From Haloarcula marismortui ATCC 43049 (GTDB lineage: Archaea > Halobacteriota > Halobacteria > Halobacteriales > Haloarculaceae): 64,000 bases of DNA. Every line of letters begins with the position of its first letter. The first letter of the stretch is position 1. The notes under the pieces are model-generated. The model was not told the origin of the DNA. It saw nothing but the letters and a program-made list of their open reading frames with translations, and ran no database searches. The position numbers were made by a program, and so were the translations under genes. Shown piece by piece: positions 28,650 to 54,299 of the stretch. The stretch lies in contig NC_006396.1 in NCBI RefSeq assembly GCF_000011085.1, positions 1,302,001 to 1,366,000 of the forward strand, given 5' to 3'.

Positions 28650-31600
28650 ACGTCTATCCGGGGCAGTTTCAGCGTGACGACTGCCCCACCGTCCGAACCG
28701 CTACCGAAGTCCACCGTGCCGCCGTAGGTTTCGGCCACCCAGACGACCAGCCACAGGCCGAGTCCGGTTCCGTGGCGCAGTTGCGTTATTGGTTCGTCGC
28801 CCGTCACAACATCGAGTTCGTGCTGTGGAATCCCCGGCCCGTCGTCAGCGACCGTGATAGAGACGGTTTGTCGGTCCACCTGGACGTCGACGCGGACCGA
28901 AGGGTCATCGCCGCCGTGTTCGAGGCTGTTTTCGACGAGTTCGCCCAGAATTCGATGTAGCCGCCCGTCACCCGCCGTAACCGGCGTCTCCGGGAGGTGT
29001 GTTTCAATTTTGCCGGCGTGCTTATCACGATGCGATGACACGATATCCGTGATAGTCGCTGACACCTCGACCGGGCCCGTGCCAAACTGGTCGCGGCGCA
29101 CGGACCGCTCCATGTCGCGTGCGCGCTCGCTCAGCGACGCCATCTCTTCGGCCTTTCGCTGGAGCCTGTGGAGAATGGAGCGATGATTCTCGTCGTCGAT
29201 TCGCTCGTCCAGCGCGTCAGCCATGCCAAGGACGACGGTCAGGTCGTTTCTGAGATTGTGCCGCAGGACCCGGTTGAGCAGTTTCAGCCGGCGCTCACGC
29301 TCGCGCTGTTCGGTTATGTCCGTGTAGATACCGAACCCGCGGACGCTGTCGCCGTCCCGGCTGTATGGCACGCCCCGGAAGAGGAAGTCACGGAACCCTG
29401 TCTCGGTCATCAGTCGGAGTTCAGTCTGGAAAGGGTCGCCGTCTGCCTGTCCATCGTCAAACTGGGGTAGTTCGTCGTTCGTAGCGTCCGGCAGCCGGAG
29501 GAGGTCGGATAGGGGACTGTCGACGGCCGTGTCCTGACCGTACCCGAACACGTCGGAAAACGCGGGGTTGACTGATCTGACGACCGACTCATCCGCAACT
29601 GTCTCCGTCTCGATGACGGCGTCTGGAAGCGTATTAAACAGGTACGAGAACCGGTCGCGTTCGTCTTCCAGCTCTGCCCGCGCCTGCTTGAGTTCAGTCA
29701 GGTCCCGGACGACGCCGACGGTACCACGAAACTGGTCCGCGTCGATCAGCGACACCTCGATCTCTGCCGGGCGCTGCTCTCCGTGTGCCGTTTCCAGCGC
29801 CGTTTCGAGCTGGACCGCCCCGGTTCCGCCCTGCTGACAGAGGTCACCGATGCGACATGTAAACTCATCAATCGCGTCCTGATCGAGAACAATGCGCGGG
29901 TGCTGGCCCAGAAGCGTCGCCCGCTCGTAGCCGAGCCATTCCGCGAGCGGTTCGGTGACCAACTGGAACCGGCCTTCGTCGTCGAGGACGTACATCATAT
30001 CACGGACATTTTCGACCACTGATTCGTACCGCAACAGGCTCCGCTCGCGCTCGACGCGGTCGAACGCGGCGGCTGCATTGGACGCGAGAATCTTCCCGAC
30101 GGAGACATCCGATTCGGTGAACTCGTGTCCCTGTTGCGCACCGACACTCACGACACCGTGGTCACCCATCGGGAGGTACATCGTCGCCGACAGAACGTCG
30201 GAGTCGTAGTTGTCGACCCGGTCGAACTCGTCGATGACCAGCGGGTCGCCGCGCTCGAACGCTTCTCCGGGAAACCCCTCGTCGGCGTTGTATACCGGCC
30301 GGTCCGGGACTTTGTCGCTGGCAGCGGCTGGCCGGAGCGTGTCCGTCTCCTCGTCGTACAGCCGCACGAGCGAGTGGTCGAACCCGAGGTCCGACCGGGT
30401 CGCCTCGATGACCGTTTCGGCGACTTCCTGGGGCGTCTGTGCCTGCATGAGCGACCGGGTCGTGTCCAGTAGTCCGGACAACGCCTCGTCACGCCGTTTC
30501 TGCTCCGTGATATCCCGAATAACGCCTGCGGTCCCGGCGAATCGCTCGTCGTCGTCGTACAGTAGCGTCATGTGGTCTTGCGCAGGGAACGACCCTCCCG
30601 ACGCCTGCTGGATCGACAGTTCGAACGTCTCCTCGTCGTCGCGGTCCTCGAATATCATCTCCTGAACGATAGATTCGGCGCGCTCGACGACGCCGTCGTT
30701 CTTGATGAAGCCGGTGTACGAGCCAAGCAGCTCTTCCTCGGAGTAGCCCGTCAGGTCGGTCATCGCCTGATTGACGAACTCGAAGTACCCTTCGGAGTCG
30801 AGGGCGTACACGCCGTCGTCGACCGCCTCGATGATGTTCTCGTACCGTTCGAGTTCGTCCTCACGGTGGCGGCGTTCGAGTTCGTGGTTGACCCACTCAA
30901 CGAGCAGTTTCATGAACGCCTCCTCGCTATCGGAGAACGACTCCGACCGGGCCTGTTCGTCCCCGAAACAGAGCGTTCCGTATGGCTCGCCGGCGACCGT
31001 GATGAGGCCACCGGCGTAGCACGCGACGCCGCTTTGCTGGTACACGTCCGCCGCGTGTCCCCCCTCGGTGGTGGCATCGGCAATCGCATAGAGGTCACCG
31101 GAGTCGAGCACTCGCTGGCAGTAGGTATCCGCAAGCGGCGTCTCTGTCCCGGATTCGAGAGGGGTGTTCCCGGTGACCGTCTGGATTTCGTGGACTCCGT
31201 CCTCGATACGGCTCAGGTAGCCAAACGCCATGTCGAGTCGGTCCAGCCCGATTTCGATGACTCGACCGACGGTCTCGGCCTCGCTGAGTCCGTTTCCGGT
31301 AGCAAGCTGTGTCAGCTCCTGTAGCGAGTCGTTGTTGGCACGCAGCGTCCGTTCGCGCTCCTTGCGTGCTGTGATATCCGTGGCGATGGCGACGAGACGC
31401 GGAGCCTGTGCGTCGCGTTCCTCGATGACTCCGCGCGTCCGGAGCCACCGCGTCTCCCCGTCGACGTCGGTACGGAACTCGGCGTCGACCCGTTCATCTT
31501 TTTCAGACACCCGCTCGAACGCCGCTTCGAGCGACTGGCGGTCGTCGGGGTGGATATACTCGTAGAACGCCGAGGCGGTGCCTTCGAAGGCCGTCGGTGT

Positions 31601-32533
31601 CGTCCCGAAGAGTTCCGCGGTCGCCTCGTCCCAGACCATCTCGTCAGTTTCTAGATTCCACTCGTAGACGCCGGTGTCCGTTCCGTCCAGCGCCAGGTCG
31701 AGTCGCCGGTTCGTCTCTTCGAGGGCCCGTTCGCGCTCCTTTCGGTCGGAGATGTCCCTGAGAACGCCCGTACAGAACCACTGCCCGTTTCGCTCGAAAT
31801 CGCCGAACGACACCGCGACGGTCAGCTGGTCTCCGGCGGCGGTCACGAGCGGCAGTTCGAGGTAGTCCCAGTCGACGTTCCGGTTGCCAGTCCGAAGGTA
31901 TCGATCCAATCCCTCGAAGTGAGCGCTTCGCAGATGTTCGGGAATGACTTTCGCGAAGTCGTCGCCGACTAGTTCCTTGCGGTCGTAGCCCGTCAGTTCG
32001 ACAGCCTCGTCGTTTGCGTATACGACCTCGCTGTCGGCGTCGATGGTGACGACGGCGTCGGAGATACTGCCGGCGATGGCATCAAAAGAGTCTGCAAGTT
32101 CCGGCGGGAGCCGCGTCGGCCGGTCATCGGGAGCCGCCGGTGGGTCGCTCCCGTCGTCTCGGCCTGTCGGTTCGCGTCCCTGCGTCACGATGTCGTACAC
32201 CCGATCTGTCAGCGACACTTCGCTGCGAGGGACGTACTCGGTTACATCAAGCCGTGTCGCGCGAGCGGCGACCGTCCCGTCTGGCTCGGCCGTACAGAGA
32301 ACGACCGGGAGCGCGTCGTACTGCTCACGTATCGCCGCTAACACATCTAGCCCGGTTTCTGACCCTGACAGGTGCTGTTCACAGACGACGACATCGTAGC
32401 CGTGCTCGGCCAGTTCCGACAGCGCGTCCGTCACGGTGGCGACTGCCGTGACTGAGACCGGTGCGTCAGGTATGGCTGTGTCCGCGTCTTCGCCGGCAGG
32501 GCATACGTACAACAAATTCGGCATATCGGACAT
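28646..32533 (-). CDS. Multi-sensor histidine kinase: pseudo-receiver, 5 PAS, 2 GAF
   Basis: Encodes 1295 residues, no membrane segments. Order of domains: receiver-like (5-115), PAS (about 148-265), PAS (275-395), GAF (400-555), PAS (560-685), GAF (690-840), PAS (845-965), PAS (970-1085), HisKA helix with phospho-acceptor His in LRHNLRND, and HATPase (to the end) with N-box GELVENSLEHGG, G1 ADDGPGIP and G2 GTGLGLWL. The receiver has Glu (E52) where the phosphorylated Asp should be, and Arg in place of the conserved Lys (YVPRSE), so it is probably not a phosphate acceptor. A cytoplasmic kinase integrating redox, light or ligand cues is likely; ligands are unknown. Confidence 0.9.
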   Translation of the reverse strand: MSDMPNLLYVCPAGEDADTAIPDAPVSVTAVATVTDALSELAEHGYDVVVCEQHLSGSETGLDVLAAIREQYDALPVVLCTAEPDGTVAARATRLDVTEYVPRSEVSLTDRVYDIVTQGREPTGRDDGSDPPAAPDDRPTRLPPELADSFDAIAGSISDAVVTIDADSEVVYANDEAVELTGYDRKELVGDDFAKVIPEHLRSAHFEGLDRYLRTGNRNVDWDYLELPLVTAAGDQLTVAVSFGDFERNGQWFCTGVLRDISDRKERERALEETNRRLDLALDGTDTGVYEWNLETDEMVWDEATAELFGTTPTAFEGTASAFYEYIHPDDRQSLEAAFERVSEKDERVDAEFRTDVDGETRWLRTRGVIEERDAQAPRLVAIATDITARKERERTLRANNDSLQELTQLATGNGLSEAETVGRVIEIGLDRLDMAFGYLSRIEDGVHEIQTVTGNTPLESGTETPLADTYCQRVLDSGDLYAIADATTEGGHAADVYQQSGVACYAGGLITVAGEPYGTLCFGDEQARSESFSDSEEAFMKLLVEWVNHELERRHREDELERYENIIEAVDDGVYALDSEGYFEFVNQAMTDLTGYSEEELLGSYTGFIKNDGVVERAESIVQEMIFEDRDDEETFELSIQQASGGSFPAQDHMTLLYDDDERFAGTAGVIRDITEQKRRDEALSGLLDTTRSLMQAQTPQEVAETVIEATRSDLGFDHSLVRLYDEETDTLRPAAASDKVPDRPVYNADEGFPGEAFERGDPLVIDEFDRVDNYDSDVLSATMYLPMGDHGVVSVGAQQGHEFTESDVSVGKILASNAAAAFDRVERERSLLRYESVVENVRDMMYVLDDEGRFQLVTEPLAEWLGYERATLLGQHPRIVLDQDAIDEFTCRIGDLCQQGGTGAVQLETALETAHGEQRPAEIEVSLIDADQFRGTVGVVRDLTELKQARAELEDERDRFSYLFNTLPDAVIETETVADESVVRSVNPAFSDVFGYGQDTAVDSPLSDLLRLPDATNDELPQFDDGQADGDPFQTELRLMTETGFRDFLFRGVPYSRDGDSVRGFGIYTDITEQRERERRLKLLNRVLRHNLRNDLTVVLGMADALDERIDDENHRSILHRLQRKAEEMASLSERARDMERSVRRDQFGTGPVEVSATITDIVSSHRDKHAGKIETHLPETPVTAGDGRLHRILGELVENSLEHGGDDPSVRVDVQVDRQTVSITVADDGPGIPQHELDVVTGDEPITQLRHGTGLGLWLVVWVAETYGGTVDFGSGSDGGAVVTLKLPRIDV

Positions 32534-32609
32534 AGCGTTCCGTTGTAACTGCTATACGATGGGGTGGCATATACGCTCTGGCGAGAGTATCAAATGTCGA
32601 AACGAGCGG

Positions 32610-34031
32610 CTACATGTCGTCAAGCGCCTGCCAGGAGAGCTGTGGGTTCCGGGCCGCGGTCACCTGATCGATGCGTTTCGCCGCCGGACGCGACGGCGCA
32701 TCGGCCAGTTCGGCGTCCGAATCACCGGCCACAGCGTTGAATGCGGCCGCGAGCTGGTCCAGCGAGCGCTTGGTCTCTCCTTCCGTGGGCTCGGTCATCA
32801 ACGCCTCGTCGACGATTTCGGGCCACTTCGTCGTCGGCGGATGGACGCCGTAATCGAGCATCCGCTTGGCCGCGTCAGCAGCGTCCTGCTCGCCCGCGCT
32901 GGCGACGAACTCGTGATGGAACGGGCCAAATGGCACCTCGTACTCTATCTGCTCAGCGAGGTAGTTCGCGTTCAGCACGGCCTTCGCGCTGGCGTCTCGG
33001 AGGCCTTCGTCGCCCAATCTGGCGATGTACGCAAAGGTCTTGAGCAATACCGGCCAGTTGCCGTAGAAGCCATGCACCTTCCCGATCGAGTTCGCCGGCT
33101 CGTAGTGTTCGTAGTTGCCACCACGTTCCCTGACGTGTGGGTTCGGGAGGAACTGGGCCAGTTCCTCGCGGACGCCGACCGGGCCGGCACCGGGGCCACC
33201 GCCGCCGTGGGGTGTCGCGAACGTCTTGTGGACGTTGTAGTGCATCACGTCGAAGCCCATGTCGCCGGGGCGAGCGCGCCCAAGCAAGGCGTTGAGGTTC
33301 GCGCCGTCGTAGTACAGCAGGCCGCCGGCGTCGTGGACGATGTCGGCGACGTGCTCGATATCGCGCTCGAACAGCCCAAGCGTGTTGGGGTTCGTGAGCA
33401 TCAGCGCGGCAGTGTCGTCGCCGACGGCCGCCTCCAGCGCCTCGATGTCGACGCGGCCGTCGTCACCGCTCGGTAGCTCCACGACCTCGTAGCCAGCCAT
33501 CGCCGCCGTCGCGAAGTTCGTGCCGTGCGCCGAGTCCGGGATGACGACCTCCGAGCGCTCGTCGTCGTTGTGTTCGTGGTAGGCCTTCGCGATCTGGATG
33601 CCGGTGAACTCACCGGCCGCGCCGGCCGGCGGCTGCAGCGTTACGGCGTCCATGCCGCCGATGCGGCCCAGATAGTCCTGGAGCCGGTGACACAGCGCCA
33701 GCGTCCCCTGTACCGTCGAATCGGGTCGGCCAGGGTGGATGGCGGCGTCCGCCCGTGCAGCCACGTCCTCGGTGAAGGAGGGGTTGTACTTCATCGTACA
33801 CGAGCCGAGCGGGAACGGCCCGCTCTCGACGCCGTAGTTCATCTGCGAGAGGCGCGTATAGTGCCGGGCCAGTTCAGGCTCGGCCGGGTCCGGTAGTGAG
33901 AGGCTGTCCCGCGTCAGATCATCTGGCAGCGGCGAATCCTCGATGTCAACTGTCTTGCTCGTCTTCTCCGAGAGCAGCGGCTCGTACAGGTCGTCGCTGT
34001 CGTCGGTCCAGCGCGCTTGATCGTATTTCAC
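32610..34031 (-). CDS. gcvPB: Glycine dehydrogenase (decarboxylating) subunit 2
   Basis: Encodes 473 residues from a GTG at 34031 (VKYDQARWT). The P-protein beta half: PLP-binding Lys K269 in YNVHKTFATPHGGGGPG, plus GSCTMKYNP and EPANSIGKVHGFYG. With gcvPA it decarboxylates glycine and passes the aminomethyl group to lipoyl GcvH. The reading frame stays open upstream through three 78-bp repeats into gcvPA, but homology to P-proteins begins at this GTG, so the repeat is taken as leader. The last gene of the gcvT-gcvH-gcvPA-gcvPB operon. Confidence 0.93.
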   Translation of the reverse strand: MKYDQARWTDDSDDLYEPLLSEKTSKTVDIEDSPLPDDLTRDSLSLPDPAEPELARHYTRLSQMNYGVESGPFPLGSCTMKYNPSFTEDVAARADAAIHPGRPDSTVQGTLALCHRLQDYLGRIGGMDAVTLQPPAGAAGEFTGIQIAKAYHEHNDDERSEVVIPDSAHGTNFATAAMAGYEVVELPSGDDGRVDIEALEAAVGDDTAALMLTNPNTLGLFERDIEHVADIVHDAGGLLYYDGANLNALLGRARPGDMGFDVMHYNVHKTFATPHGGGGPGAGPVGVREELAQFLPNPHVRERGGNYEHYEPANSIGKVHGFYGNWPVLLKTFAYIARLGDEGLRDASAKAVLNANYLAEQIEYEVPFGPFHHEFVASAGEQDAADAAKRMLDYGVHPPTTKWPEIVDEALMTEPTEGETKRSLDQLAAAFNAVAGDSDAELADAPSRPAAKRIDQVTAARNPQLSWQALDDM

Positions 34032-34033
34032 GC

Positions 34034-34266
34034 GAGACACCCCCGTGTCGAGCGTGAAGCTCGTGGGACGTGGTTTGTCCCACGGTGTTTCGCCGAGTAG
34101 CGCGAGGCGAAGAGACACCCCCGTGTCGAGCGTGAAGCTCGTGGGACGCGGTTTGTCCCACGGTGTTTCGCCGAGTAGCGCGAGGCGAAGAGACACCCCC
34201 GTGTCGAGCGTGAAGCTCGTGGGACGTGGTTTGTCCCACGGTGTTTCGCCGAGTAGCGCGAGGCGA
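34034..34266. repeat. Three tandem 78-bp repeats between gcvPA and gcvPB
   Basis: Units start at 34034, 34112 and 34190. They are almost identical; the only internal difference seen is one base in a hairpin loop of unit 2 (34149). Each unit is nearly all dyads: GACAC/GTGTC, CGAGC/GCTCG, GTGGGAC/GTCCCAC, and TTCGCC/GGCGAA. The length is exactly 26 codons and no stop codon appears in the gcvPB frame. The array fills the 238-base gap in an otherwise tightly packed operon. No spacers separate the units, so it is not a CRISPR array. Confidence 0.9.
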
Positions 34267-34269
34267 GTG

Positions 34270-35613
34270 TCATTTCGCCACCTCCCGGAACGCCGCCACG
34301 AACTCGTCTGTGGCATCAGTAGTGGTCTCGGTCACACACACCTGCACCAGGTGGTCGTCGACCGCGTGGACCGCGAAGCCATCGGCTGCGAGGTCGGCAA
34401 CGATGGCGCTTGCGGGCTGGTCCGTGTGTGCGAGGAACTCCCGGAAGTGGTGGCGGCCGTGAATCGGGGCCGTCACCCCGACAATATCGTCGAGGCGGTC
34501 GGCCAGGTCACGAGCGCGGGTGACGCAGTCTTCAGCAAGATCGACCAGCCCGTCCGGACCGAGCCACGCGGCGTGCATCGCGGTTCGGAGCGCAACCCAC
34601 GCCTGATTCGTACAGATGTTCGAAGTGGCCCGCTCCTTGCGGATGTGTTGCTCCCGCGTCTGAAGTGTTAGCGTGTACGCGCGGCGGTCGGCGGCGTCTT
34701 CACTGGCCCCGACCAGCCGACCGGGGACCTGCCGCAGATACTCCTCGCGGGTGACGAACATCCCCAGCCCGAAGCCGTAGGCGGTGCCAGTCCCCAGCGA
34801 CGCGGCGTCGCCGACGACCACGTCGGCTCCGACATTGGCTGGGCGCTCCAGCAGGGACAGCGCGATCGGATCCGAGCCGAGACAGAACAGCGCGTCATGG
34901 TCGTGGGCAAGGTCACCGATTGCGCCGAGCCGTTCTTCGATAACGCCACGGACTGTCGGCGACTCGGCGTATACCATCGCGGTGTCGTCGCCGATCTCGT
35001 CGGCCAGCGCCGGCACGTCGGCGACGCCGTCGGTCATCGGGTAGGACTCGACCGTGAGGTCTGGTCCCTCGGCATAGTTCGACAGGACGGCGCGTTTGCC
35101 CTCCCGGAGGTGTTCAGGAACCAGAATCCGGTCGCCGGACACCGAGCGGACGCGCTGGGAGAGCGTCGCCGCCTCGCCCAGCGCCGTCGCGTCGTCGTAC
35201 ATCGAGCAGTTGGCAACGTCCAGTCCTGTGAGTTCCACCAGCATCGACTGGAACTCAAAGAGGGCCTGCAGGAATCCCTGTGCGACCTCGGGCTGGTACT
35301 GCGTGTAGGAGGTCAGGAACTCCGACCGGCTTGCGAGGTCGTCAACAACGCTCGGGACGTAATGGTCATAGTGGCCGCGGCCGAGAAACTCAGTCAGGTC
35401 GGCGTTGCGGCTCAGAAGGCCAGCGACTTCCCGGCGCGTCGCCCGCTCGCTCCGGGCGTCGATGCCGAACTCGCCGTCGAAGGCCACGGACTCGGGAACG
35501 TCGAACAGCGACTCAAGGTCGTCGGCTCCGACAACATCGAGCATCGCCGCGGTTTCTGCGGCCGTCTGCGGTGCGTACGGACTGCCTGTCGCATGTGAGT
35601 TACTGTTACTCAT
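34270..35613 (-). CDS. gcvPA: Glycine dehydrogenase (decarboxylating) subunit 1
   Basis: Encodes 447 residues from the ATG at 35613 (MSNSNSH), with GGTGGTTCTC upstream as a weak Shine-Dalgarno. The P-protein alpha half: [35 protein letters not shown] and [19 protein letters not shown] are typical. It forms a heterodimer pair with GcvPB in the split archaeal P-protein. It follows gcvH by about 108 bases and precedes gcvPB, separated by the 78-bp repeat array. Confidence 0.95.
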
Positions 35614-35721
35614 TTGAGAACCACCCAGTAGCGCCGGGGTGACATGATATCGACAGCTAGCGACCGTGTCCACATTAGGTTACTCCTTTCACCCCCTGCA
35701 AGGGACCGCTGCTACCGGGGG

Positions 35722-36105
35722 TTACTCGATCTGATCGCGGTACGCGTCGGGTGAAAGCAGGTCGTCGGTTTCGCTCTTGTCGTCAACCTCGACAGTGAGC
35801 ATCCAGCCGTCGCCGAACGGGTCCTCGTTCAGCAGTTCCGGCTCGTCGCGGAGTCGGTCGTTGACTGCTGTGACGGTGCCGGAGACGGGGGCGTACACGT
35901 CGGACACAGCCTTGATAGACTCCACCACGCCGAAGTCCTCGCCCGCAGTCAGCTCCGTGCCTTCATCGGGCAGTTCGACGAACACCACGTCGCCGAGTTC
36001 GTCCTGTGCGAACGCCGTGATGCCGACCTCGGCAGTGTCACCGGCGACGCGTACCCATTCGTGTGACTCCAGATATCGCAGGTCGTCGGGAACGTCGAAG
36101 CTCAT
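35722..36105 (-). CDS. gcvH: Glycine cleavage system H protein
   Basis: Encodes 127 residues. The lipoylated lysine is K65 in [14 protein letters not shown]. It shuttles the aminomethyl intermediate between the P and T proteins. It overlaps the end of gcvT by four bases (ATGA), showing translational coupling. Full family length. Confidence 0.97.
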
Positions 36106-37193
36106 CTATCGAGGAATGGCGTGCTCCTGGTACGTGCTTTCTTCGGTTCACCGCGGACGACGACGCGGACGGACTTGTCCGGTTCAGCGTACGCCGACGG
36201 GACGTAGGCGAGGGCAATCGGTGCTCCCAGTGTCGGACTCATCGTTCCGCTGGTGATGTGGCCGATCGGCTCCCCGTCCGGCGTTGTCACGTCGTACCCG
36301 TGGCGCGGGACGCCGCGGTCGACAAGCTCGATGCCGATGAGCTTCTCTTCGGGACCGTCCGCGGCGACGCCCTCCAGTGCGTCCCGAGCGACGAACTCCG
36401 TATCGAGCTTAACTGTCCAGCCGATACCGGCCTCGTAGGGCGTTCTGGGCTCGTCAACCGGATGGAACTCCTGGCCGGAGAGCAGGAAGCCCATTTCCAA
36501 ACGGAGGGTGTCGCGCGCGCCGAGCCCACAGGGTTGACACTCCAGTGCGTCCCAGACCACCCCGGCGTCGTCGGGCGGACAGAGGATTTCAAAGCCCGGT
36601 TCGCCAGTGTAGCCCGTCCGGGCGATTAGCGAGTCCACGCCGGCGACAGCCCCGGCAGCCACCTCGAACCGAGACAGGGCAGTGAGCGAGACATCTGTCT
36701 CGGCCGACAGCAGGTCCGGCGCGTCAGGCCCTTGGACGGCAATCATCGCGTACTCCTCTGTCCGGTTCGTCACCGTCGCGTCAAGCCCACGCTCATCTCG
36801 CTCAGAGAGCCACCGCTCGGTCATCTCTCCGTCGTGCCCGGCGTTCGGGATAAACAGGAACTCATCGGCCGCGCCTTCCGGCAGTCGGTAGACAACGGTG
36901 TCGTCCAGCATAATCCCATCCTCATCTGTGATGGCCCCGTACTGGGCCTCGCCCGGGTCCAGCACGGTCACGTCGTTGGTGGTCAGCCGCTGTGTCAGCG
37001 TCGCCGCGTCCGGCCCGGCCACGGTTATCTGTCCCATGTGCGAAACGTCGAACTTCCCGGCTTCGCTCCGAACTGCCTCGTGTTCTATGCGGATCGACTC
37101 GAACTCGACCGGCATCTCCCACCCGCCGAAATCGGTGAACGAAGCGTCTGCTCGCTCGTGAATCGCAGAGAGCGGTGGTGCCCGCAGTGTCAT
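36102..37193 (-). CDS. gcvT: Glycine cleavage system T protein (aminomethyltransferase)
   Basis: Encodes 363 residues from the ATG at 37193 (MTLRAPPLS); an upstream in-frame option is rejected as non-homologous. Signature stretches are [27 protein letters not shown] and [13 protein letters not shown]. It releases ammonia and makes methylene-tetrahydrofolate (or the haloarchaeal equivalent). First gene of the gcv operon, directly overlapping gcvH. Confidence 0.95.
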
Positions 37194-37339
37194 ACGCGGA
37201 CCTCTCGTCCCCCGTGGTCTTACCGTTTGGCCCTCCACCGCTTGCTGGCGTCTCATAAATCATATACGACGATATCAAATCGCTTACTGCGGTAGATAGG
37301 GCAACAAGACTGGGACCGAAAATACGCCGTCGGCCTTCG

Positions 37340-39136
37340 TTACTCGCTTTGCGCCAGCGGGAACACGAGCTCGACCCGTGTTTCGCCGTCGTGGTCTTCG
37401 TCGATCGTTACAGACCCGCCAAGGCGTCGGACAAGCCACGTAACCGCCCACAATCCGAGTCCACGGCTGTGTGCCACTGGCCCCTCGGTCTCCGAATCCA
37501 GGACGTCGCGTTCCATATCGGGGATAGCGGACCCATCGGTATCGACGCTGACTGTCACCTGACCCGCCGGCGTCTCTTCAGCTGTAAGCTTGACCGTCGG
37601 ATTGGGCAGATCGCTGTATTCCAGCGCGTTCTCGACAAGAATCTCAAGTATCAGGTCGATAGCCATCCTGTCGCCTGATACCTCCGCGTCAGTCGGCGCT
37701 ACCTCAATGGTTGCCCCGGAATGTTGTTCTGTGAGGTCGTCCCGGATATCAACGAGAGTCTGCTCGAGGTGGAGTGTCCCATTCCGGAGGTCGCGCTCGA
37801 TGGCCCGGTCGAACGTCCGTGCTCGCTCGGCCAGCGAATCAAGTTCTTTCGAGGCGTTTTCGATTCTGTCGATGTGTCCGCTAGCGGCGTCAACAGAGAA
37901 ATCGGACGAGCCGAGTTCTTCTTTGAGGAGTCTTGAATTACCCCGTATCACGGTCAGCTTGTTTCGGATGTTGTGCCGGAGAATCCGACTCATGACCATG
38001 AGCCGCTGCTCTCGCTCCTTGTCCTGCGTGATGTCGCGAACGATGCCTCGCAGTTTCGGCGTCCCGTCGCGAACCGTCTTTTCGGCCCGGAGTCGGAACC
38101 AGCGCTCGGTTTCGTCAGCGGTCTGACGGCGCGCCTCTAGTTCCATCGGTTCGCCGGTTTCACGACAGGTCTCGATAGCGTCGCGAACGGCCGCTCTATC
38201 GTTGGGATGGTACTGTTTGATAGCCTCTTCAAGCGTCGGATTGTACTCTGGCGTTCCGTAGAGGCGCTTCATGCCGGCAGTTCCCTCTATCAGACCCGTC
38301 TCCAGATCGAGCTCCCACCCGCCAACGTCGGCCAGGGTTTCGGTCCCGACGAGCCACTCCAGTTGTTCCTCCCGCTGTTTCAATCTCGTTGCGTCGTCCA
38401 GCCCAACGACGACGCGTTCGACAGTCCCATCGTCGCCCAGTATCGGCGCGGCATTGCTTGAAAGCCACCGCTCGCTCCCATCCTCGAGTTCTATCCAGTG
38501 CTCGAACCCAAACACCGGTTCACCCGATTCGAGTACCTGCGTAACCGGGTGTTCCGAGTCGGGGATTTCCGTCCCGTCTTTGTAGTATATGTTCCACTCC
38601 GGCTGGTCGTATCGTCTTCGAGTGATTTTCTCGCGTTCAAGACCGAGTAGCTCCTCGGCACGATCGTTAGCCAGCGAAATTCTTCCAGATCGTTCTACGA
38701 CGACGATGCCGACCGGACTGACCTCGAAGACCCGCTCAATGAGGGCCTGCTTTTCTCGCCGCCGCTTGCGCTGTGTGATATCCTCCGCCAGCCATAGTAC
38801 GCGCCCCACGTCGTCACCACCGACCGGCGTGACGCGCGCCTCGAAGTATCGCTCTCCATGATCGAGTGATAGTTGATACTCGATGTGCCGCTGTTCCCCT
38901 GTTTCCAAGACATCCTCGATAATCGTGTAGAACTGGTCAGCCTGTGCTGTAGAGAAGATATCCCAGAGGTCCGTTCCCAGCAGTGCTTCCGGGTCTTTGA
39001 AAAATAAGGCCCCGTTGTGGGCGTTGTGGATGACATCGACGAAGACGCCGTCGGCGTCTAGGACGATAGCCGGGTCTGAAATTATCTCACAAAGCCCGTT
39101 TAGCACGTCTTGATCGTGAAGAGATTCTTTACTCAT
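37340..39136 (-). CDS. PAS-domain histidine kinase with altered ATP-site motif
   Basis: Encodes 598 residues, no membrane segments. Three PAS domains (about 12-128, 132-258, 262-380) are followed by the HisKA helix with phospho-acceptor His in LRHNIRNK and a HATPase domain with N-box EILVENALEYSD. The G1 box reads DTDGSAIP; aligned with DxGxG of relatives (ADNGPGIP), the conserved Asp and the second Gly are replaced by Thr and Ala. G2 (RGLGLW) is largely intact. Reduced ATP binding is likely; it may be a weak or regulatory kinase. It stands alone, upstream of the NYN gene on the other strand. Confidence 0.87.
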   Translation of the reverse strand: MSKESLHDQDVLNGLCEIISDPAIVLDADGVFVDVIHNAHNGALFFKDPEALLGTDLWDIFSTAQADQFYTIIEDVLETGEQRHIEYQLSLDHGERYFEARVTPVGGDDVGRVLWLAEDITQRKRRREKQALIERVFEVSPVGIVVVERSGRISLANDRAEELLGLEREKITRRRYDQPEWNIYYKDGTEIPDSEHPVTQVLESGEPVFGFEHWIELEDGSERWLSSNAAPILGDDGTVERVVVGLDDATRLKQREEQLEWLVGTETLADVGGWELDLETGLIEGTAGMKRLYGTPEYNPTLEEAIKQYHPNDRAAVRDAIETCRETGEPMELEARRQTADETERWFRLRAEKTVRDGTPKLRGIVRDITQDKEREQRLMVMSRILRHNIRNKLTVIRGNSRLLKEELGSSDFSVDAASGHIDRIENASKELDSLAERARTFDRAIERDLRNGTLHLEQTLVDIRDDLTEQHSGATIEVAPTDAEVSGDRMAIDLILEILVENALEYSDLPNPTVKLTAEETPAGQVTVSVDTDGSAIPDMERDVLDSETEGPVAHSRGLGLWAVTWLVRRLGGSVTIDEDHDGETRVELVFPLAQSE

Positions 39137-53958: not shown

Positions 53959-54033
53959 GGGTTCGTGGTCTAGGTCGGTTATGACACCTCCTTGACATGG
54001 AGGAGGCCGGCGGTTCAAATCCGCCCGAACCCA
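53959..54033 (+). tRNA. tRNA-Val (anticodon GAC)
   Basis: Acceptor GGGTTCG (53959-53965) pairs with CGAACCC (54026-54032), discriminator A at 54033. Anticodon stem CCTCC/GGAGG encloses TTGACAT (anticodon GAC); T-stem GGCGG/CCGCC encloses TTCAAAT. No CCA encoded. Confidence 0.97.
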
Positions 54034-54299
54034 CTTCTGACGACGTCACCGACGAGCGGAGCGAGTCGCGGTCGTCGTCTGTAGGGTTGCCAAGGATTTG
54101 AACCCTGAAAGGCGAGCGAAGCGAGTCTTCCTTTGGTTCACAATCCGCCCGAACCCATTTCTACTGTCGCTACCTCCCGAGCGGAGCGAGTCGGCAGCGA
54201 CCTGTGGAGTAAGCAGAGTCGTGTGCAAGGGCGCATATCTCGACGCTCCGACAGGGGCATCCCATAGTTTCTTGCCCCAACCGCGTTAGAGTCATCTAT
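54034..54299. other. Intergenic scar following tRNA-Val(GAC)
   Basis: No gene. Contains GC-rich inverted motifs (CGAGCGGAGCGAG, repeated near 54053 and 54178; a related GCGAGCGAAGCGAG near 54112) and an AGGGTT/AACCCT inverted pair (about 54081-54107). At 54135-54161 there is an imperfect copy of the tRNA 3' end. Confidence 0.5.
54135..54161 (+). repeat. Degenerate duplicate of tRNA-Val(GAC) 3' end
   Basis: GGTTCA-C-AATCCGCCCGAACCCA followed by TTTCT matches the tRNA 3' end and flank with one inserted base and one change. It has the look of an old attR-like site about 120 bases from the tRNA, with no integrase between. Confidence 0.65.

Follow-up and report, generated by a model that had tools for sequence, protein, structure and literature searches.

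A tandem hairpin array between gcvPA and gcvPB of Haloarcula marismortui is probably the body of a translated relay that keeps the two genes coupled

In the 64,000-nt stretch of the Haloarcula marismortui ATCC 43049 genome analyzed here (the window), the gap between the glycine dehydrogenase genes gcvPA and gcvPB is filled by three tandem 78-nt units. We propose that this array is the body of a relay element, whose open reading frame takes over at the stop codon of gcvPA, ends at the start codon of gcvPB, and keeps the two genes coupled. Judged from the sequence, we consider this the best explanation overall and give it a probability of about 0.78.

Results

The array in the glycine cleavage operon

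On the minus strand of the window, the order of genes as identified with NCBIfam models is gcvT, gcvH, gcvPA, the array, and gcvPB. An earlier note, made from the DNA letters of the window, had placed the array in a glycine cleavage operon, and the GcvPA and GcvPB flanks with GcvH and GcvT upstream confirm this context. The gcvPA gene (subunit 1; 34270..35673; NF001696, 511 bits) ends with the TGA at 34270-34272; the start of its ORF is uncertain and likely corresponds to an internal ATG about 20 codons in. The gcvPB gene (subunit 2; 32610..34031; NF003346, 682 bits) begins with GTG. Farther upstream, a direct 4-nt ATGA overlap also joins gcvT to gcvH (36102-36105).

The units occupy 34034-34111, 34112-34189, and 34190-34267 and are 99% identical. 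Unit 1, the first in the mRNA, extends with its junction bases over 34190..34269; it is followed by unit 2 (34112..34189) and by unit 3 (34034..34111), the 3' end of which is joined to gcvPB. Tandem Repeats Finder (TRF) reported the array at 34034-34266, with a period of 78 and 98% matches, as the top-scoring array of the window. The three near-identical copies described in the earlier note were thus borne out, as were the four dyads of each unit (GACAC/GTGTC, GAGC/GCTC, GTGGGAC/GTCCCAC, and TTCGCC/GGCGAA). The array folded better than 200 dinucleotide shuffles on both strands, with z-scores of -6.9 and -7.3. The suggested count of twelve hairpins proved too literal: the dyads compete with one another, and the third unit, adjoining gcvPB, is predicted to form a single longer hairpin in which the start codon is enclosed.

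The array is unlikely to be an assembly artefact: it is internal to a contig of 3.1 Mb, and two units with an identical unit junction are present in three further species (G006, G023, and G028). A glycine riboswitch, which the earlier note had not seen, and other Rfam families were ruled out: a search of 30000-38000 with Rfam covariance models at E up to 1 returned no riboswitch and no match there, the single sub-threshold match lying elsewhere. A plasmid-borne source was rejected after no match was found among 72,556 plasmids. In the 4.27 Mb of the window genome searched, the 78-nt unit had no copy outside gcv, which rules out a simple REP family within that genome.

An open frame with stop-start overlaps at both ends

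The end of gcvPA reads GGAGGTG-GCGAA-ATGA. Its Shine-Dalgarno (SD) motif GGAGGTG (34279..34285) lies within the final codons of gcvPA, 5 nt ahead of the ATG, and the ATGA (34270..34273) is a -4 overlap in which the gcvPA stop meets the start of an 81-codon ORF spanning all three units (34028..34273, minus strand). This relay ORF ends in GTGA (34028..34031), where its stop overlaps the start of gcvPB. In relatives whose junction is empty, GGAGGTG precedes gcvPB's own start. Each unit equals 26 codons, so added copies leave the relay frame intact; the relay measures 29 codons in Haloarcula relatives with a single unit and 55 in those with two, and its frame is open in every array-carrying genome.

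The predicted peptide is basic, rich in R, H, and S, devoid of D and E although the proteome is acidic, and without an NCBIfam match. Across the Haloarcula set with a single unit, a share of 0.27 of the changes in the relay frame was synonymous, against 0.31 for random changes; neither amino-acid conservation above random nor the purifying selection expected of a small protein was seen. Changes creating a stop were absent in the relay frame only. Thus, the open frame is kept while the peptide is not.

Within Haloarcula, 15 of the 30 gcv junctions contain an insert. The other 15 are empty, with a direct -4 or -1 overlap and, in nearly all of them, the same SD GGAGGTG at the end of gcvPA. Ten inserts are 82 nt long (one unit), those of G006, G023, and G028 are 160 nt (two units), that of the window genome is 238 nt, and G024 has a divergent insert of 115 nt, which exceeds a single unit by 33 nt and is therefore also in frame. 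The unit has been duplicated in the lineage and triplicated in the window genome, in steps of 26 codons; with one, two, or three units depending on the species, the amplification proposed in the earlier note is supported, and so is strong constraint, of a local kind. Two types of unit loop occur; G028 and G023 have both and single-unit species only one of the two, a pattern that would fit an old duplication, subsequent losses, and a recent expansion in the window genome. G040, a member of a different family, has an insert of the same architecture (82 nt, 74% identity). The body of the insert is freely replaced while the frame and the terminal hairpin persist, as in G024 or in the 28-nt form found at argB.

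Stop-start contact at gcvPA-gcvPB junctions across the order

We surveyed this junction in sampled genomes of the order and at named loci, including 11 haloarchaeal ones (L197-L207). Direct junctions (20 nt or less) numbered 71 among those resolved. Where the gap exceeded 20 nt, stop-start contact was kept in all 50 resolved haloarchaeal junctions: 33 were bridged by relay ORFs, one of them a chain of two, and 17 by extension of gcvPB to an in-frame upstream start, the relay counts not representing independent events since inserts are related within lineages. The 50 comprise 49 from the main survey (32 relay and 17 extended) and Salinarchaeum laminariae (L201), which had first been set aside for its 547-nt gap; its hairpin-rich insert contains one open frame of 184 codons, running from the ATGA of gcvPA to the ATGA of gcvPB. 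Outside the script-resolved set were 28 further records, of which 24 were short by eye, G001 and G026 had direct overlaps, and N205 and N206 were left out.

Across the 32 inserts of the main survey, relay ORFs range from 19 to 81 codons. They start in an ATGA or GTGA overlap in 31 of the 32, the exception being G051 with TGAC-ATG; beyond these 32, the relay of N201 starts in ATGA. In every gcv relay insert the relay stop is at +1 of the gcvPB start, forming an NTGA stop-start overlap. G263 (L086) has two chained relay ORFs of 38 and 20 codons before gcvPB, the product of an independent tandem duplication of the element. G207 combines a relay with an extended gcvPB, the relay stop falling at the upstream, extended start. 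For a GC-rich, stop-poor insert of the right length, the chance of an open frame is 0.4-0.9, so that each case is only moderately surprising singly. On a gcvPA tree, in which the placement of G118 is unreliable, the number of changes in relay presence was at least 10 as required by supported branches, and 17 by parsimony. The gcvPA of G118 (L085) matches in two pieces and sits on a very long branch, a possible frameshift or assembly error.

A covarying hairpin holds the gcvPB start

The last 32 nt of the relay form a hairpin, TTCACGC-TC-GACAC-GGGG-GTGTC-TC-GCGTGAA (34027..34058, minus strand; covariance-model match of 53 bits), which we call the core module. An SD-like GGGGGTG (34038..34044) lies in its loop and 3' arm, and the gcvPB start codon lies in the outer 3' arm; in G004, G006, G016, and G019 the SD reads GGAGGTG. 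Among 15 gcv variants, 22 cells showed two-sided changes compared to 8.3 in shuffles. In a set of 27, with 16 added from other operons, there were 37 against 12.5, a value reached in 0 of 500 shuffles, and 96.9% of the cells were paired. Through its outermost pair the element is linked to the host gene's base after the RTGA-A position, in the second codon; this pair was complementary in 23 of the 27 compared to 15.2 in shuffles. Opening the SD and the start would cost a mean of 14.5 kcal/mol at relay junctions and 8.5 at others (p = 7e-11, kinship ignored). The SD and start are thus paired in a conserved structure, as in RBS-sequestering hairpins, except in G110, G366, G388, and G207; in these four the hairpin is weak or absent, and it is therefore not required for a relay.

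The covariation anticipated for the stems was found in this hairpin, but the two upstream stems of the gcv unit showed no two-sided, compensatory change and vary little. Stem 2 has relatives among the dispersed hairpins of genus g21. There, long modular hairpin arrays with the conserved loop GACAAACCGCGTC and compensating stems occur in 6-67 copies per genome (for example, L089 1501-1580, L093 1501-1610, and L324 1201-1440). Some lie between convergent genes; these arrays are possibly terminators, and the gcv unit likely derived its stem 2 from them. Elsewhere in the window (54040-54190), three GAGCGNAGCGAG dyads closely follow a tRNA-Val gene (53959-54034), and the 3' end of the tRNA is partly repeated at about 54135-54160; the inner GAGCGNAGCGAG dyad resembles the loops of haloarchaeal hairpin arrays.

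The same element at other operons

A strict core motif, TCAYGCTC-NMCA-N{3,8}-GGTGKY-TCGCRTGA, had 41 matches in 392 genomes and none in a reversed control. Its last RTG is the start of hom, secD, sucD, rpoB, nuoCD, argB, ndk, a livF-type ATPase gene, leuC, or argC, some of these and the following host genes, beyond the profile-identified ones, being named by reading the sequence instead of by model matches. Frame-true relays were present at 20 of the 23 distinct loci examined among these matches. The 20 inserts, of 28-133 nt, all lead in frame to the RTGA from a start located at the upstream stop or close to it; the rpoB relay begins 3 nt past that stop. Many share a common body (RTGAGTNCNNNNAGACGTTCC...GCGGGCTGCGACT...) despite their different operons and families, and the smallest, at argB (28 nt), consists of the core hairpin alone. 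A covariance model of the core gave 76 matches in 99 genomes (E up to 0.01). Outside the set used to build it, relays were again seen at purQ, gatA, mnhB-like, metE-like, phosphate-permease-like, and rps28e genes and at copies of ndk and sucD; in both rps28e cases the upstream stop and the relay start are separated by about 10-15 nt. The earlier note had missed both overlaps, the hairpin over SD and start, and the fact that the device recurs between genes of other operons.

The argC junction is a plain RTGA overlap in 29 of 30 Haloarcula genomes and contains a 79-nt element in G027 only, where it is bounded by TGAC at both sides. This is, by sequence comparison, a recent and clean gain. The TGA/TGAC at both element ends may reflect target duplication or may have been selected. 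As expected of REP- or MITE-type mobility, there are empty sites at gcv and argC and homologous bodies at unrelated operons; the core module, with 0-6 copies per genome, does not reach the many copies typical of such repeats. The mobile or REP-like family considered in the earlier note therefore stands as kinship to a dispersed repeat family, but not as a set of further unit copies in the window genome.

We infer that these elements constitute a dispersed haloarchaeal family of translationally transparent relays that would preserve coupling. We see an even chance that they are a mobile family inserting at stop-start overlaps and bringing their own start, relay ORF, SD, start-codon hairpin, and new overlap, such that operons could be split at many junctions without loss of coupling; such a family would have no described counterpart. 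The open-access literature that we searched on repeats, coupling, and small ORFs of haloarchaea does not describe the element.

Discussion

How a relay would keep the genes coupled

In Haloferax volcanii, the commonest spacing is -4 and a 22-nt gap abolishes reinitiation (PMC10666635). Untranslated RNA is the presumed target of polarity in archaea (PMC12548453). The genes on either side of a 28-547-nt insert would hence lose their coupling if translation of the insert did not come within a few nucleotides of the next start. In our proposal, the element lies between two operon genes whose stop and start codons once overlapped directly as ATGA. On completing gcvPA in the ATGA, a ribosome would restart immediately on the relay ORF, read through the hairpins, finish in the GTGA, and restart on gcvPB, leaving no untranslated stretch between the genes and the relay peptide as a by-product. 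On free mRNA, the last hairpin would hide the gcvPB SD and start, and fresh ribosomes would initiate poorly; a ribosome terminating the relay would sit on the 3' arm and open the hairpin. Synthesis of GcvPB would in this way be tied to that of GcvPA, with which it forms one enzyme. The translational spacer or control role suggested in the earlier note gains support here, in the form of a predicted translation and coupling. GcvPA/GcvPB, SucCD, Nuo, RNA polymerase, and GatCA all form complexes, which agrees with the published finding that overlaps are enriched among genes for heteromeric complexes.

Alternative explanations

The array might act mainly as RNA, its hairpins stabilizing, processing, or attenuating the transcript and setting the gcvPA:gcvPB ratio, with the open frame incidental. 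The very stable folding on both strands would be expected then, and the kinship of stem 2 to the g21 hairpins, with their compensating stems and their arrays partly between convergent genes, points the same way. We consider this improbable, given that the body stems at gcv do not covary, that bodies are freely replaced (G024; the 28 nt at argB) while frame and terminal hairpin persist, and that the frame rule is left unexplained. Closer to our proposal, and with somewhat less than even odds, is a selfish or neutral mobile repeat tolerated only where coupling stays intact. Here the relay mechanism is the same and only the benefit to the host differs, so the likelihood that we assign to it overlaps with that of the best explanation. 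Patchy presence, the recent gain at argC, homologous bodies in unrelated operons, and tandem copy-number changes all agree with such a repeat; the match of the hairpin arm to the host's second codon and the co-change of inner pairs suggest instead upkeep after insertion.

That the relay ORF is a gene for a small protein working with glycine dehydrogenase seems very unlikely, even though the frame is open and has its own SD and ATG. Besides the random pattern of amino-acid change, other lineages encode unrelated peptides, the length varies in steps of 26 residues, and the peptide is acid-free, R/H/S-rich, and without a match in NCBIfam. Near-identical relay peptides beside unrelated enzymes reflect homology of the DNA. 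Least credible of all is that the repeats encode an N-terminal extension of GcvPB. The gcvPB frame, which the earlier note had found to be held open, is indeed open across the array in the window, but it is not the relevant frame: it contains an in-frame TGA in G009 and G012, and several other species lack a usable upstream start.

Implications

The relay, as we propose it, predicts that many apparent haloarchaeal operon gaps of 28-550 nt are translated relays and not spacers or promoters. They perhaps account for part of the class spaced by +50 to +150 nt, which has been attributed mostly to separate transcripts (PMC10666635). Filled and empty sites, arrays of one to three units, and chained relays are natural experiments that bear on coupling by reinitiation versus RNA unfolding. 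That selection keeps a frame open while its peptide is not selected also calls for caution in annotating small proteins. If the mobility is true, the relay would be an insert of a type built to be harmless to operon translation.

Comparison with known systems

A close relative is NTGA termination-reinitiation (Huber et al. 2019, PMC6728339; 2023, PMC10666635), likewise of a haloarchaeon, with which relays share the -4 NTGA overlap, the internal SD, the joining of subunits of one complex, and the need for a very short distance. Whereas those papers concern direct gene pairs, a relay chains at least two overlaps via an inserted, non-conserved ORF that spans gaps of up to 547 nt. Coupled uORFs and minigenes (PMC12548453, PMC8708949) similarly use a short ORF to bring ribosomes to the next start; the relay, in contrast, is placed between two genes of an operon, with coupling on either side, and belongs to a dispersed family with homologous copies in many operons. 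RBS-sequestering hairpins also bury a downstream RBS in a structure that the upstream ribosome opens. That of the relay is distinguished as a small, recurrent, covarying module with a fixed TC/TC internal loop, carried on an insertable element. Rickettsia palindromic elements (RPE) are short palindromic repeats that insert in frame in genes. REP/REPIN and MITEs (for REP, see PMC3733652 and PMC3116915) are likewise short palindromic repeats of patchy presence, in tandem or dispersed. Unlike RPE and all of these, the relay is sense-oriented, is situated at stop-start overlaps, and carries an SD, an ORF, and a start.
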